23,046 nucleotides of DNA, from the IMG/VR virus record IMGVR_UViG_3300027791_000144, positions 1-23,046 of that record; one strand, written 5' to 3'. The stretch's first letter is position 1. Each line of letters begins with the position of its first letter. This DNA is from a virus. Positions 1,335 to 19,190 of the stretch are shown in pieces. Below the pieces are notes generated by a model. That model was given only the letters and a program-made list of their open reading frames with translations, had not been told where the DNA came from and ran no database searches. Made by a program: the position numbers and the translations under genes.

Positions 1335-4163
1335 TTATTCTCCTAGTTTAAGTTCGAGGGCTTCAATGCGAAGCTGCTGCTCTTTGATTGCCTCAATCAG
1401 CACCGCAACCATGTTACCGTACTTGACTGACTTAATGCCTTCGCCGTTAGTGCTGACTAAATCAGGTAGAACTGCTTCCACCTCTTGAGCGATTACGCCG
1501 ACCTCTGAGTTGCCATTCTCTAGCCAATCGAATGATACACCACGCAGGGACTTAACGGCATCCAGAGAGCCTGTGAGGGTCTCTACGTTGGTCTTGAGTG
1601 TAGCGTCTGAGGTGGTGTTGAAGTTGGCTGCGTTGACTGTTCCTGAGAAGTGGCCGTCATTGAACTTATATGACGCATCACCAAGTGTTAAAGCTCCGTT
1701 AGAAAGTGCGCCCACATTATTGGTTGGGTACAATGCTGCACCGCCACCAGAGAGACCGCCACCACCAGAACGAGGGTCAAGTATTATTGTCGAAACAACA
1801 CCAGCCCGTGACATCCAGCTGCCCACAGATGTGCCGTCTTTATATAGGTCAAAAAGTGCACCATCAGTGCTTTTTCTGTTTACATAGAAAGGCCTACCAA
1901 CGGAAGTAGTTGCTCCAGCAATACCATTAGACTGAATTTGAAAACCAGCCGTATTGTAAGCAGCACTCGTCTTACCCACAAGCAGGTTGCCCGATGAGTC
2001 GACGCGCATACGTTCTGCAAAGGTTGAACCCATACGGAAGATTAGATTGCCAGCACCACTCATGTTTATGTAAGAAGTGTCTCCGTAACCCTGTAAGGAA
2101 AGACCTTTAGAGGTTGATGCGTCTTGCCCTAAGTTACTACTTGTAATGCTTCCATTTACATGTAGGCCGGAGTTAGGGGCAGTCATGTTTATGCCAACAT
2201 TGCCTGACGAGTCGATACGCATACGTTCTGAGGAGTTTGTAAAGAACCTTTGTCCTAAACCTGTAACAGCATAAAAATCATAATAACCTGCACCACCACC
2301 AACTGCACTACTTTCACCAATAAAAAGTTTAGTTGCGCCAGACTCCTTAAAAGACATAAAGGGGGTTGTAGTATCCACAGTCAGCCCATCAGCCGTCACT
2401 GTGCCTGTTACGTCAATGCCAGTGGCTGTGGTGTTCAATTTCATTGCGGCGTTATGAAACAATTCTACTTGTGCGCCCTCAACAGCAACAATCATCTCTG
2501 CATTATTAGCAGCATTGTTAACTTGTAAACGACTAGCAGCAATAACTAAAAACCCTGTTCCAGTATCATTTATGCGGCTATGAGTACCATCATGGTAAAT
2601 CTGTAGGTCAGACCCAGCACCGAAGATGGCCTTGTCGTTGTCGCCGAAGGACACATCAGCAGTTGTAGTTAGACCAGCGAACGTAGGGCTGTTGCTAGTT
2701 CCAAGGCCGAGGTTAGTACGACCAGCAGATGCACTTGCTAAATCAGACAGATTGTTTGCAGCAAGCAGAGCGCCTGACAGGGAAGCATAAGCAGCAACCC
2801 AGCTAGAACCTTCATACACCTTCATGACATCGTCAGTCGTATTGAAGTACAAAGCTCCAGCTACTAAAGCGTTACCGTCATTGTCTACAGTTGGGTCAGC
2901 AGACTTCTGGCCTAAATACCTGTCGTCAAATGAATCTAATGCAGCAAGGGCAGCGTCTTTAGATGCCTGTGCGGATGATGCAGATGTTGCACTAGCTGAT
3001 GCAGATGCAGCAGATTCACTAGCTTTGGTTGTGGCAATACCAGCTTGGGTTGTTGCAGTGGACGCAGACCCAGCCGCAGCCGTCTCAGATGCAGCAGCTT
3101 CGCCAGCCTTGGTTGTTGATATGCCAGCTTGGGTTGTCGCTGTTGAGGCAGATGTGGAAGCGTTAGACGCAGATGTTGCCGCTTCACCCGCTTTAGTCGT
3201 AGAAATCCCAGCCTGAGTAGTAGCTGTACCAGCACTTGTAGAAGCAGAAGATGCACTAGAAGAGGCAGCATTCTGGCTACCTAAAGCAGCCGCAGCACTT
3301 GAAGATGCTTCAGAAGCCTTTGTAGTTGAGATACCAGCTTGGGTTGTAGAAATGCCAGCCTGTGTAGTAGCTGTAGACGCTTGAGTTGTTGCTATACCAG
3401 CTTGTGTAGTAGCTGTAGAGGCACTTGCAGAAGCTTCCGAGGCTTTAGTCGTTGCAAGTGAAACCTGAGCCGTAGCCAGAGAAACCTGAGAAGCACCGTT
3501 GGATGTTGCAAGTCCCGCTTGGGTTGTTGCAGTACCTGCAGAACCCGCAGCATTCGTTTCAGAAGTCGCCGCTGCATTCTTAGAAGCTAGGGCAGCTGCA
3601 GCACTTGCAGCACTCTCACCAGCTTTAGTCGTTGAAATGCCAGCCTGAGTAGATGCAGTGCTAGCAGATGCAGAAGCCTCTCCAGCTTTAGTCGTAGCTG
3701 TAGCAGCATTAGTATCAGCAAGTAGCACTTCAGCCATGTTGGTTGATACATCATTGACGCTGGCTATATTGCTGGACACTGTATTAACCGCAGTGTTGCT
3801 AGCAGCTACTGTGTTAATGTTCGTGATATTAGCATTCAAAGTCGTGATGGCATTATCTGCACGGTCACGGCTTTCCTCGGAGATTAACCTGTTCTGCTGG
3901 TGAGCGAGGTCTAGGTCAGCCTCAAATAGAGTTGAGCCATCTGTAAAGTCTACAAGTGCTACTACAGGCGTAACTCGCTTTACGATTACTATGAGGCCTG
4001 CGGCTGGTGTGGGGGATACACTAAGCTGAGTATCGTTAATGAAAGTAGGCGTTACGCTAACACCATCTACGGTGACTACCACATGCGATTGGCTTATGTA
4101 GGTGAACGGGATTTGAAACGAGTTCGTCGATCCGTCAGCGACATAGTTAATAATGGAAGACAT
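1335..4163 (-). CDS. Tail fibre protein with gp17-like N-terminus and S74 self-cleaving chaperone
   Basis: A 942-residue receptor-binding fibre. Residues 1 to about 106 resemble the T7 gp17 N-terminal tail-attachment domain ([19 protein letters not shown], then [19 protein letters not shown]). Residues 107 to about 395 form an Ala/Ser/Thr-rich heptad-repeat shaft. The section around 396-850 is beta-rich with repeated phage-fibre motifs ([26 protein letters not shown] and [13 protein letters not shown]). The last 91 residues are a peptidase S74 intramolecular chaperone: [10 protein letters not shown] puts the catalytic dyad at S852 and K857, and [12 protein letters not shown] with a terminal coiled coil ([17 protein letters not shown]) completes the domain. 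This domain trimerises the fibre, then cuts itself off before Ser852. An AGGAG site precedes the start. It determines host range. Confidence 0.92.
2940..3715 (-). repeat. Imperfect coding repeats forming the tail fibre shaft
   Basis: This stretch encodes many degenerate copies of units like [20 protein letters not shown], giving an Ala/Ser/Thr/Gln-rich shaft. The cleanest block (3309-3413, residues 251-285) is five direct heptads: [35 protein letters not shown]. The seven-residue period and alternating small hydrophobics point to a trimeric coiled-coil shaft. Near-identical DNA units make the region prone to length change by slippage or recombination. Confidence 0.85.
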
Positions 4164-14273: not shown

Positions 14274-14312
14274 AAAGAAAAAAATGGGCTGGCCCAATTA
14301 AGAGCCAACCCA
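14274..14312 (-). terminator. Intrinsic terminator after the capsid gene (T7 T-phi position)
   Basis: On the coding strand the capsid stop is followed by UGGGUUGGC, a ten-base loop and GCCAGCCCA (a nine-pair stem with one G-U), then UUUUUUUCUUU. Stem plus U-run is a textbook rho-independent terminator. The position, between coat protein and first tail gene, equals that of T7 T-phi. The next gene's ATG is only 11 bases past the U-run, so there is no room for a promoter, and tail genes must be reached by read-through. Confidence 0.9.
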
Positions 14313-14320
14313 AAAAGAAA

Positions 14321-15286
14321 TTAAGCAGATTTGATTTCTACTGAACACTCAGGACGCAAGATACCGTGGCCCATGGCGTATTTAGCAGCCATCAGTGTAC
14401 CTTGGTACATTACTTCAAAGTCACCGGAAGTACGCTCAACAGCAAGGTCCATCAATTTGACAGTACCCAATGCTTGCTTCTGCATAACTACAGCAACTGT
14501 GGTTGAGAAGTTACCGTGGTAAGTGTTGTTCTCACCAGTTACAGCTGATGCTATGTTTGTTGATGGGATGTTGTTAGATTTTACAATCTGAACACCAGCA
14601 ACTTTAAGAACTGTACCGTCTGCGTATACACCAGCACCACCGAAGTCACGGTTGATGACATCAGTTGTTTGTACCAATTGGTAGTATTGAGCAGGGCGAA
14701 CAATCGCTACGCGGTCATTCTCAGGAACGTCTTTCTCGTCCATAGCTTGAGCAGCAGCAAAGATAGAAGCAGCCAAAGATGCTCCGTTAGTTGCAGCATC
14801 TGCATCAGTGATAGCAGTACCACCGTTACCACCAGTTACAGTCGCAGCGCCACGAGCAGCCAATACGGCTAACTGAAGCAAGCGCAGGTCAAACTGCTTG
14901 GCAAGAGCCATACCCAACAAGCGGGAATACTCAGCACGGACATCATAGTGGTTCTTGGCCTCATCTATATTTGCAATAAATGTATCAGCAATCAGAACGT
15001 CATCGATGTTAACAACGATTTCGTTATGTGCAATTTTCTGTGTACCCAACAGAGGGGTGCCAACAACATGGTAAGCAGCGTTGGCTTTACCTGTCACTGG
15101 GAAAGAGGCTGACTTGCCAGACGCGATTGTGCGTGAGACATGCAGGTCTTTCATTACGTTAGTTTCGTCGAAGGCGGTGAGAACTTCACCAGCAAAGACT
15201 TTAAGGAACAGAGCCGAGGCTGCTGCGTTATCACCGGGGGTCGCCTTATTGACAACACCTAAGCGTGATGCGGTTACATTGGTCAT
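14321..15286 (-). CDS. Major capsid protein (T7 gp10-like, HK97 fold)
   Basis: A 321-residue major head protein. Characteristic family segments are GEVLTAFDETNVMKDLHVSR (about 33-52), GKSASFPVTGKANAAYH (57-73), LIADTFIANIDEAKNHYDVR (98-117) and the C-terminal VMYQGTLMAAKYAMGHGILR. These match coat proteins of marine T7-like podoviruses. The start has a TAGGAT ribosome-binding site 9 bases upstream and the expected MTNVTASRLG N-terminus. The gene is bracketed by a structured leader and an intrinsic terminator, as expected for the most abundant late product. I saw no slippery sequence near the stop that would give a longer gp10B-like form. Confidence 0.95.
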   Translation of the reverse strand: MTNVTASRLGVVNKATPGDNAAASALFLKVFAGEVLTAFDETNVMKDLHVSRTIASGKSASFPVTGKANAAYHVVGTPLLGTQKIAHNEIVVNIDDVLIADTFIANIDEAKNHYDVRAEYSRLLGMALAKQFDLRLLQLAVLAARGAATVTGGNGGTAITDADAATNGASLAASIFAAAQAMDEKDVPENDRVAIVRPAQYYQLVQTTDVINRDFGGAGVYADGTVLKVAGVQIVKSNNIPSTNIASAVTGENNTYHGNFSTTVAVVMQKQALGTVKLMDLAVERTSGDFEVMYQGTLMAAKYAMGHGILRPECSVEIKSA

Positions 15287-15481
15287 TTTCTTTATCCTAT
15301 GAAGAATTGATTTAGATTGAGAATGACTGTCGCTTACTACTTGTCTCGGTTGTCGGACGCATCCGGCCTAGTCGTTCATCTTTGATAGTCTCAGCCACCT
15401 AAAGAGGTGTGCTAGATGTTCTCGTGTCATAGGAATTGACGGGGGCGCAGTTAATACCTGACACCCCCGCCAGAGGTACTT
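15287..15481 (-). promoter_or_regulatory. Structured leader between scaffold and major capsid genes
   Basis: This 195-base stretch is the longest non-coding gap in the window and stands just upstream of the most highly expressed gene. On the coding (minus) strand it contains a strong hairpin right after the scaffold stop (15438-15471), a second smaller one (15394-15412, CACCT-CUUU-AGGUG with GC closing pairs and one bulged A) and a short third one (15354-15365, CGGA-UGCG-UCCG). The capsid ribosome-binding site (TAGGAT) is at the end. In T7 the equivalent gap carries the phi-10 promoter and an RNase III site. I found no convincing sigma-70 or T7-type promoter here, so the promoter role is inferred from position only. 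Confidence 0.55.
15438..15471 (-). other. Strong RNA hairpin after the scaffold stop codon
   Basis: Read on the minus strand, GGCGGGGGUGUCAG is followed by the loop GUAUUAA and CUGCGCCCCCGUC. About eight outer pairs (including one G-U) are followed by a further G-U, a G-C and a CAG:CUG closing helix with one bulged U. No U-tract follows (GUCAAUUCC), so it is a poor intrinsic terminator. An RNase processing site, a 3' stabiliser for the upstream messenger or a 5' stabiliser for the capsid messenger are all possible. Confidence 0.65.
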
Positions 15482-16177
15482 TTAAAATACCGAAGACCTA
15501 CCTAGCTTCTCTTCTACGTCCTTAGTGTACGCAGAGTCCTTGCCGTATCGTTGGTCTTTCATTGCAGCTACAACTTCCGCTGTGCTACGGAACTCATCTT
15601 TGGATGCGCCAGATGACTTACCGGAGAGCAGTTGAGGCTCAGAGCCATCCATTGCTTCCCGCTTAGATTGTAGCCATTCGACTGCCATCTTAGCGTTATC
15701 TGTGCTTGTCCCAACCATCTGGTTGTAGAGTTCAAGTTCTTTTGTATCGAGGCTATCTCTAGCCCAATCGGTTAGGTCGGCATAGCCTTCCTTCCCACCA
15801 GCGACTTCCATCACTGCGTCTGCATCTGCTGTCTGTGCGGATTGCATTCCCTTGATGTAGGTGTCCACCATCTCTTTGGGGTAACCCATACTCTCAAGTT
15901 CTGTGTAGCTTTCCTCACCCAACTCTCCAGAGCCAGCAAATTCCTCAGAGAACTTATTGAAGCTTACGGGTTCACTTTTAGGTGCCTCTGTTTCTGCTGG
16001 GGCTTCATCATCTGAAGGGGCAGATAGCTTCTTTTCTAGTTCGCTGTAGGATTTCGCTAGGTCCTCGGGAGAGCTGAATTTCTCAGGTAACCATTCAGGA
16101 CGTTCAGTTTGGTTATCCTCGGCAACGGGTGCTTCTGGGCCAGTATCGTCTGATACGATTGTGATGCTTTCACTCAT
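15482..16177 (-). CDS. Capsid assembly scaffolding protein (T7 gp9-like)
   Basis: A 231-residue acidic scaffolding protein that guides procapsid formation and leaves before maturation. The N-terminal half is highly acidic and Pro/Ser-rich (for example APSDDEAPAETEAP), with the WLPEKFSSPEDLAKSYSELEKKL segment typical of podovirus scaffolds at about 29-51. The C-terminal half is helical and more charged-balanced, with FRSTAEVVAAMKDQRYGKD near the end, which in this family contacts the coat protein. Its position directly before the major capsid gene is diagnostic. The ribosome-binding site (AAGGGAAGA) lies rather far from the ATG, inside the 44-residue gene, so translation may be coupled to that gene. 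Confidence 0.92.
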   Translation of the reverse strand: MSESITIVSDDTGPEAPVAEDNQTERPEWLPEKFSSPEDLAKSYSELEKKLSAPSDDEAPAETEAPKSEPVSFNKFSEEFAGSGELGEESYTELESMGYPKEMVDTYIKGMQSAQTADADAVMEVAGGKEGYADLTDWARDSLDTKELELYNQMVGTSTDNAKMAVEWLQSKREAMDGSEPQLLSGKSSGASKDEFRSTAEVVAAMKDQRYGKDSAYTKDVEEKLGRSSVF

Positions 16178-18478: not shown

Positions 18479-18506
18479 TGTTTATTCTAATCCTCTAAGG
18501 TGCAAC

Positions 18507-19190
18507 CTAATCAAAGGCGCGGGTCCACATGGCACAGATGCCAGAGCGAACTACGTCATCATGAGTGAAGTTGCAGTGAGCTGCAGGGATGTTGTGTTTG
18601 TGCATAAGGTCTATAGCAACCTGCAGGCCACTGGTGCCTGATAGGTCATGCTGAGTTACATCCCCATTGACGATGACCTTACTATCCTCACCGATACGGG
18701 TCAGGAACATCTTCATCTCATGGGGTGTTAGGTTCTGTGCTTCATCTAGGATGACGAAGGCATTGTTGAAAGATCGTCCACGCATAACTTCAAAAGGTAC
18801 AATCTCAATGTCACCACGCTTACGGGCAACCTCGAACCTACCTTTACCTAGTCGTGCCTCTAAGACCTCAGTCAAGGGGACTACCCATGGGGCAATCTTA
18901 TCCTCGATAGTCCCCGCAAAGAAACCAAGAGACTTACCTGCAGGGATGTTAGGGCGAGTTAAGATTATCTTGTGTATCTTGTGGGCATGGAACATATCCG
19001 CAGCTACGGCTGCAGCAATGTAGGTCTTACCTGTACCTGCAGGCCCTGTGACAAATGTCTGAGGGTACTGAGAGATACAGTCCATGTAGTTCTTTTGAGC
19101 AGGGTTCATGGGTAGCAGAGGCTGCACACGGGGACCGCGCACAACCTCAACATCCTCCTGCTTACGTTTGTAAGTGGATTTCTTTCGCAT
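18507..19190 (-). CDS. phoH: PhoH-like P-loop ATPase
   Basis: A 227-residue PhoH-family protein. Walker A is GPAGTGKTY (49-57) and Walker B with the adjoining motif is VILDEAQNLT (146-155), followed by FLTRIGEDSKVIVNGDVTQ, the sensor region of the superfamily 1 helicase-like fold. The N-terminus is short and basic (MRKKSTYKRKQ). PhoH proteins are common in marine phages and are used as a signature gene; their role is unresolved (RNA metabolism and phosphate stress have both been proposed). The RNR stop codon forms part of its ribosome-binding region (TAAGG before the ATG), so it is probably co-translated with RNR. I saw no pho box, so phosphate regulation is not supported here. Confidence 0.93.
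   Translation of the reverse strand: MRKKSTYKRKQEDVEVVRGPRVQPLLPMNPAQKNYMDCISQYPQTFVTGPAGTGKTYIAAAVAADMFHAHKIHKIILTRPNIPAGKSLGFFAGTIEDKIAPWVVPLTEVLEARLGKGRFEVARKRGDIEIVPFEVMRGRSFNNAFVILDEAQNLTPHEMKMFLTRIGEDSKVIVNGDVTQHDLSGTSGLQVAIDLMHKHNIPAAHCNFTHDDVVRSGICAMWTRAFD

Follow-up and report, generated by a model that had tools for sequence, protein, structure and literature searches.

T7-like phages need far more capsid than scaffold protein from neighbouring genes, which raises the question of how the output of the two genes is set apart. In T7 the leader of gene 10 contains the promoter phi10 and the terminator Tphi lies behind the gene, while gh-1 has a putative promoter phi13 together with an annotated putative RNase III stem-loop (R10). 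Here, we address the question at a leader that contains no promoter match, namely the gap between the scaffold and capsid genes in a virus record of 23,046 bases (IMG/VR record IMGVR_UViG_3300027791_000144), which was analysed over its full length and will be referred to as the window.

The scaffold-capsid gap of the window

According to the list of open reading frames (ORFs), the main genes of the window are read on the minus strand. The window is affiliated with the Autographiviridae roseophages, its closest annotated relatives being the Roseobacter phages CRP-114, CRP-227, CRP-361, CRP-125, CRP-113 and CRP-171 (76-83% capsid identity). The gap before the capsid gene had originally been described as the sole sizeable non-coding stretch among some 30 genes: it is the largest gap between neighbouring likely genes, but the ORF list yields a count of about 25 genes. 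The features discussed below are collected in Table 1. No tRNA gene is present in the window. At a distance from the locus, the stretch 1335-4163 (minus strand) encodes a long protein with many degenerate repeats, probably a tail fibre, and the part of the CRP-114 genome that matches this stretch contains two genes annotated as collagen-like.

Table 1. Genes, structural parts and putative signals around the capsid leader (window coordinates)
Feature	Position	Strand	Basis or remark
Terminator-like hairpin with U-run, directly 3' of the capsid gene (position of T7 Tphi)	14285..14312	-	Terminator scan
Major capsid protein gene	14321..15286	-	phrog_267, E 4e-85; ATG at 15286
Likely ribosome-binding sequence AGGA, upstream of the capsid ATG	15295..15298	-	By eye
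Capsid leader, the whole scaffold-capsid gap, 195 nt	15287..15481	-	ORF list, fold
P2, 3' strand AGUC	15325..15328	-	Pairwise scan
P3/P4 module GGCC-GGA-UGCG-UCC-GACAACC	15348..15368	-	Alignment covariation
P3 GG/CC, internal loop C / ACAA	15368-15367/15349-15348	-	
P4 CGGA/UCCG, UGCG loop	15365-15362/15357-15354	-	
P2, 5' strand GACU	15387..15390	-	Pairwise scan
P1 hairpin, lower stem UAGC/GCUG, upper stem CACCU/AGGUG, loop CUUU	15392..15414	-	Alignment covariation
P1 pairings, 9 pairs	15414-15411/15395-15392 and 15409-15405/15400-15396	-	
Bulged A of P1, proposed counterpart of the LUZ100 mapped end T15	15410	-	Correspondence and cleavage putative
H1, GC-rich hairpin TGGCGGGGGTGT / GCGCCCCCGTCA, 12 pairs	15437..15472	-	Hairpin search
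Scaffold (head assembly) protein gene	15482..16177	-	phrog_1052, E 2.2e-52; stop ends at 15482
Nearest upstream palindromic promoter-like repeat ATTAGGTTGCACCTTAG, ~3.2 kb from the capsid gene	18495..18511	-	Promoter role putative

On the transcribed strand the leader folds with a minimum free energy of -59.9 kcal/mol, whereas the shuffles average -45.3 (sd 4.1; z -3.55), and none of 200 shuffles folded as well; for a slightly longer stretch of the opposite strand the z-score is -1.69. The GC-rich first stem had been placed 10 bases past the scaffold stop and was said to be followed by no U-run. H1 indeed starts at the 10th base (15472) and is followed by AAUUCC. The three stem-loops that had been seen in series are present as H1, P1 and P4, with the amendment that the third is a small hairpin within a short long-range helix. 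A hairpin of the H1 type, i.e. GGYGGGG...CCCCRUC or a close variant, is found in 23 of 35 distinct best leader hairpins (own count, window included), and these hairpins differ in length and loop among relatives. The conserved part is the 3' half of the leader, which comprises the bulged hairpin P1, the enclosing helix P2 and the hairpin P4 with the conserved frame GGCC(...)GACAACC around it and a UGCG loop.

Covariation across relatives

The leaders of six CRP phages and of IMG/VR relatives found via the capsid protein were aligned (28 rows, 27 distinct). RNAalifold recovered two hairpins with 12 pairs, 7 of which show two-sided changes, and a pairwise scan of the alignment added two further short helices; in P1, two-sided changes occur in 4 pairs. 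Over the 27 distinct rows 99.6% of the cells are paired (83.9% in shuffles), 81 cells carry two-sided changes (22.1 in shuffles) and the covariation score is 0.484 (0.163 in shuffles), and none of 500 shuffles attained any of these values. Two further measures did not stand above the shuffles, namely the number of pairs with a two-sided change (8 of 17, reached by 44 of 500) and the number of further pair types (16, reached by all 500). When the partners were slid by 1-3 columns only 19-41% remained paired.

P2 is the weakest part of the element: it is short, and its support in the main alignment comes from one clade and is shared with an alternative pairing. One pair of P2 and one of P3 change jointly in a single clade (L017, L018, L029, L031, L032), so that two choices of partner are inseparable in the main alignment; the distant leaders agree by eye with the choice made for P2 and P3. 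In one clade P2 reads AACU/AGUU. Neither is the bulged P1 universal, as among 47 representatives with capsids less than 80% identical the hairpin with a 5' bulge was found at 19 loci at p<=0.05, in comparison to shuffles of bases rather than dinucleotides. Among 34 distinct instances of P4, collected under the rule that all but at most one pair is Watson-Crick, the stems contain three G-U and no A-C pairs, which, small as the numbers are, is the expectation for an RNA of mRNA sense.

A covariance model built from the close relatives (R1) scored 72-109 bits in those that are untruncated and also matched the Pelagibacter phages HTVC011P (39.6 bits, E 3e-8) and HTVC041P (35.9 bits, E 2e-7). The check that the original prediction had put forward, i.e. 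whether the stems are conserved and covary in related phages, thus came out in its favour: P1, P2 and P3/P4 covary directly before the capsid gene and the element recurs well beyond the close relatives.

Linkage of the element to capsid genes

IMG/VR was scanned blindly with GCCNNNTGCGNNNGACAACC, in which six stem bases were left free, and at least 120 matches were obtained; capsid genes were located with a T7-like capsid profile grown from the capsid of the window. The stems are complementary in 94 of the 120 matches listed. Among these matches, 90 of the 94 complementary ones stand directly before a T7-like major capsid gene, against 0 of the 26 non-complementary ones, and 23 different stem pairs occur among the 90 linked loci. 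In 86 of the 90 linked loci among the matches listed, the distance from the end of the motif to the called start is 47-96 nt; for L130, L137, L149 and L182 the ORF start was called too far upstream and the aligned capsid begins 57-70 nt past the motif. The four complementary exceptions among the 94 listed concern a motif within the capsid coding sequence according to the profile alignment (L175), a motif 906 nt away from the nearest detected capsid ORF (L109), a contig that ends 26 nt behind the motif (L150) and a locus where no capsid ORF of 90 aa was detected (L199). The linked capsids among the matches listed fall into 47 groups at 80% identity (90 linked rows, with L013 omitted and L175, which forms a group of its own, included).

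A replicate with four free bases placed 10 of 11 complementary matches before a capsid gene and 1 of 109 others, among the matches listed. In a control in which GACAACC was changed to GACCAAC, none of the 120 matches listed, including nine complementary ones, preceded a capsid gene. The scan of genome contigs gave 18 matches, four of them complementary and one adjoining a capsid gene (L341, Telmatospirillum sp.). Capsid loci chosen independently of the motif gave the same picture from the opposite direction: 64 of 77 follow the strict P4 rule (77 of 86 loci were used, the remainder having less than 130 nt upstream), 11 of the other 13 show by eye a compensated or slightly altered form and the P4 element is absent from two of the 77 (L077, L078). 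Over the 986 kb of all 86 loci, both strands included, the strict rule matched 66 times.

The leaders of the relatives range from 132 to 1330 nt, partly through inserted small ORFs, and despite these upstream insertions the core remains directly 5' of the capsid gene. The insertions are Lys/Arg-rich small ORFs (MPKGKGTYGTK...GRPPKKK and MAKKGLYANIHAKRARG..., among others, in the leaders of L005, L006, L011, L036 and L054) that recur between H1 and P1 or ahead of H1.

Distribution among named phages

The P4 rule is matched by 14 of 26 phage records, namely those of CRP-114, CRP-227, CRP-361, CRP-125, CRP-113, CRP-171, CRP-804, HTVC011P, HTVC041P, HTVC309P, BB8 (Bordetella), RHEph01 (Rhizobium), P-SCSP2 (Prochlorococcus) and Syn5 (Synechococcus). 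As judged by eye, LUZ100, Pasto and Lo5R7ANS have a longer P4 stem, and ctgrD200 and P-SSP7 offer a divergent candidate only. Among these 26 records the P4 motif was not found in YIMV22061, RHph_I20, ProddE, T7, LUZ19, gh-1 and SP6. Of 50 Syn5-like loci, 46 were used (four have no capsid start) and 34 of these match the rule; among the others, four have by eye a loop that starts with C (L485, L488, L500, L504), seven have by eye a divergent form at best (L517-L521, L523, L524) and one contig has just 115 nt upstream (L487). None of eight LUZ19-like loci follows the P4 rule.

Between scaffold and capsid gene a promoter is annotated in T7 and LUZ19 and, as a putative one, in gh-1; in SP6 the sequence at this place is recognisable as the SP6 promoter. 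The latter four phages are without the P4 frame, whereas the leader studied here is without a promoter match. The records of ProddE, YIMV22061 and RHph_I20 carry no promoter annotation in the sequence inspected upstream of the capsid gene. Since these three phages have neither the motif nor an annotated promoter, an RNA element instead of a promoter is not a clean rule, and promoters alone fail to explain the absence of the motif.

The original prediction had likened the locus to the equivalent place in T7. The location is the same and T7 has phi10 there, but T7 is without the element. The likeness to T7 and gh-1 therefore consists of the same scaffold-capsid place, a leader of the capsid mRNA and a terminator after the capsid gene, and the leader is better regarded as an analogue of the T7 arrangement than as a demonstrated homologue.

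Other RNAs were observed in the same region. A tRNA-Asn(GTT) gene lies upstream of the capsid element in LUZ100, RHEph01 and a contig (L208 840-915, L212 746-819 and L139 6727-6802), and in several Syn5-like leaders a hairpin resembling a T-arm (GGGTTCGATTCCC) can be seen by eye at a comparable position. The glutamine-II riboswitch aptamer (RF01704; gathering score 33) precedes the capsid gene in P-SSP7 (L476 6523-6576, plus strand; 48.1 bits) and in contig L107 (2401-2348, minus strand; 37.1 bits), and 15 of the 46 Syn5-like loci (L479-L524) carry its signature CATGGAACGG on the 5' side of the capsid start.

Promoters and terminators

In agreement with what had been reported from inspection of the letters, the leader contains neither a sigma-70-like site nor a promoter-like repeat (<=3 mismatches), and no match to the likely phage RNA polymerase (RNAP) promoter of this group was found in it directly before the capsid gene. 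A sigma-70 promoter and an intrinsic terminator in the leader were ruled out by scans without a match; H1, with AAUUCC behind it, does not qualify as a terminator either. Two likenesses were considered and dropped as well, namely that of the P1 loop (CUCUUUA) to boxA, as the loop bases vary between relatives, and that of the P4 flank to the start of the T7 phi10 transcript, which was a likeness by eye only.

The 19-base palindromic repeat TTAGGTTGCACCTAAGCTC occurs in CRP-114 in three exact copies (L088 4310-4328, 6875-6893 and 8493-8511) and in partial copies in other gaps, and a related copy stands behind phoH both in CRP-114 and, at 18511-18495, in the window. Because of its resemblance to the Syn5 promoter we read this repeat as the likely phage-RNAP promoter of the group to which the window belongs. 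Syn5 RNAP is reported to have only two genomic promoters, one of which serves over 37 kb (PMC3950665). In Syn5 no match to this promoter (<=3 mismatches) was found in 14 kb around the capsid gene. In phages that are this poor in promoters, the capsid mRNA would need to be set apart post-transcriptionally or at translation.

Mapped transcript ends in LUZ100

Among the phages that carry the element, mapped ends were found for LUZ100 alone (features of GenBank record OP329100; PMC10134795). It shares with the window the frame GGCC...UGCG...GACAACC, by eye with a longer stem, and a bulged P1 (AAGUC-gc-ACUGGC...GCCGGU-GACUU), and differs in that its leader also contains tRNA-Asn; its P4 is longer and the fold of this leader is not clearly above shuffles (z -1.66). 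The available text describes the LUZ100 capsid gene as having a local phage promoter and a downstream terminator, and describes no RNA element there (PMC10134795). The mapped phage promoter lies ~560 nt upstream. A mapped 3' end that is not marked as intrinsic, T15, falls at the two-base bulge of LUZ100 P1, its base having been read from the 100-base windows of the record, in which five intrinsic terminators place the end near base 60. The chance that any of the 22 ends falls within 2 nt of a given base is about 0.003, and that for one end in the interval from tRNA to capsid is 0.018, the site having been picked after inspection. T15 represents one mapped end from a single, distant phage, and as there is a 4-bp hairpin, albeit a weak one, upstream of it, exonuclease trimming could be an alternative cause. 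With this reservation, T15 hints at cleavage at the bulge of LUZ100 P1. In the same record the end named terminator T14 (OP329100 20769-20868) lies about 2 nt before the 5' end of tRNA-Asn and for that reason seems to have arisen by RNase P cleavage and not by termination.

Relation to known RNAs

A comparison of the window with Rfam 15 gave no match at the gathering score of any family. The leader searched at E<=10 gave three snoRNA matches only and ten relatives searched at E<=1 gave two matches, all of which are below gathering; known self-cleaving ribozymes, riboswitches and other Rfam families were ruled out on the ground that no covariance model matched at gathering score. In the titles and abstract starts of the open-access papers listed no description of a capsid-leader RNA in these phages was found. 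A likeness exists to the structured RNAs manA, wcaG and PhotoRC-II of marine phages and cyanophages (Weinberg et al. 2010, PMC2864571), which were also found by comparative genomics in potential 5' UTRs of marine phage genes; the difference is that the main text of that paper makes no mention of "capsid", and neither does that of a second comparative RNA paper (PMC8040213). Given the absence of a match in Rfam and of a description in the literature searched, we regard the element as a new family within a known kind of RNA, the cis-acting phage mRNA leaders, with a putative mechanism.

Putative mechanism and alternatives

The conserved structure stands directly before the capsid gene and probably shapes the capsid mRNA. 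We propose that H1, P1 and P2/P3/P4 together would constitute a cis-acting structured element that acts after transcription. A distant phage promoter would give rise to one long transcript of the structural genes, which a putative cutter would cleave at or near P1. The separate capsid mRNA released in this way would have the folded element over its 5' end and would stop at the terminator behind the gene, and H1 would cap the scaffold message upstream at its 3' end. As an outcome, we infer that the capsid mRNA would be stabilised, i.e. longer-lived, and better translated than the scaffold mRNA, with a higher output of capsid, which T7 achieves by means of phi10. That such a leader defines and protects a separate capsid mRNA through a cut at or near P1 seems to us about evenly poised between right and wrong. 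Processing or stabilisation of mRNA, as had been suggested at the outset, is consistent with three observations, namely that no promoter match lies nearby, that Syn5 has the element and that the LUZ100 end falls at P1, and remains a putative mechanism. RNase III-type sites have a cleaved stem of about 20 bp and are longer than P1 with its 9 pairs and bulge; H1 has 12 pairs, and cleavage itself is putative.

Conservation reaches furthest at P4 and its unpaired ACAA and UGCG, as would be expected of a protein site, and the position of P4 relative to the called start (within the range given above in 86 of the 90 linked loci among the matches listed) would also suit an operator, at which a phage protein (capsid or scaffold) or a host protein binds P3/P4 and represses or activates capsid translation without any cleavage. 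However, the RNA frame recurs in phages whose capsid sequences and hosts differ considerably, which a phage-specific partner would fit less well, and an operator leaves T15 of LUZ100 unexplained; because that end lies at the P1 bulge we favour cutting at P1 over pure protein binding, which we hold to be unlikely, although a serious contender. The same end would agree with a self-cleaving ribozyme of an undescribed class, the core of which would cleave itself at the bulge of P1 or at its 5' edge, as would the conserved unpaired bases around short helices (ACUAUC, AUGAAC, ACAAC, CGA). Yet no ribozyme model is among the Rfam matches of the leader up to E 10 and P1 was not found at every locus, which makes self-cleavage distinctly unlikely.

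Still less probable is that the hairpins form incidentally in a signal for the phage RNAP (promoter, pause or terminator) or in a DNA element such as an origin or packaging site. The position of phi10 in T7 and the stable GC-rich H1 are what such a signal might look like, but the bases of the P4 stem differ between loci with pairing retained (23 stem types at 90 loci among the matches listed), T7, gh-1 and LUZ19 have annotated promoters at this place and yet no motif, Syn5 has the motif and no nearby promoter match, and H1 has no U-run; against a DNA element, the G-U and A-C counts of the stems argue mildly, the numbers being small. Conservation might finally stem from a short coding region or leader peptide that overlaps the element, as small ORFs do run across P1 in the window (e.g. 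MTREHLAHLFRWLRLSKMND), and are retained in some close relatives, and 37 of 54 distinct leaders contain some ORF with a length of 12-60 codons across P1-P4. Such an ORF is missing from the other 17, the ORFs differ between groups and the changes in the stems are compensatory; with no frame common to the leaders, the coding explanation is largely refuted and very improbable.

Returning to cleavage of a long transcript, a more far-reaching version of it would see the element as a widespread and hitherto undescribed RNA class of T7-like phages, either self-cleaving or cut by a dedicated activity at the P1 bulge, that replaces the capsid promoter of T7. In this generality we consider the claim rather unlikely. 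If it were true, a single long phage transcript would be split at the P1 bulge into a scaffold and a capsid message, and a general route to capsid over-expression in promoter-poor autographiviruses would be at hand. For the location of capsid genes the motif provides a compact marker, as a complementary GCC-hairpin-GACAACC has a capsid gene right behind it in 90 of 94 cases among the matches listed. Where T7 has a promoter at the junction, many of its marine, soil and cyanobacterial relatives carry the RNA element instead, and a conserved RNA element exactly between the scaffold and capsid genes offers a concrete and testable answer to the question of how the unequal need for the two proteins may be served.
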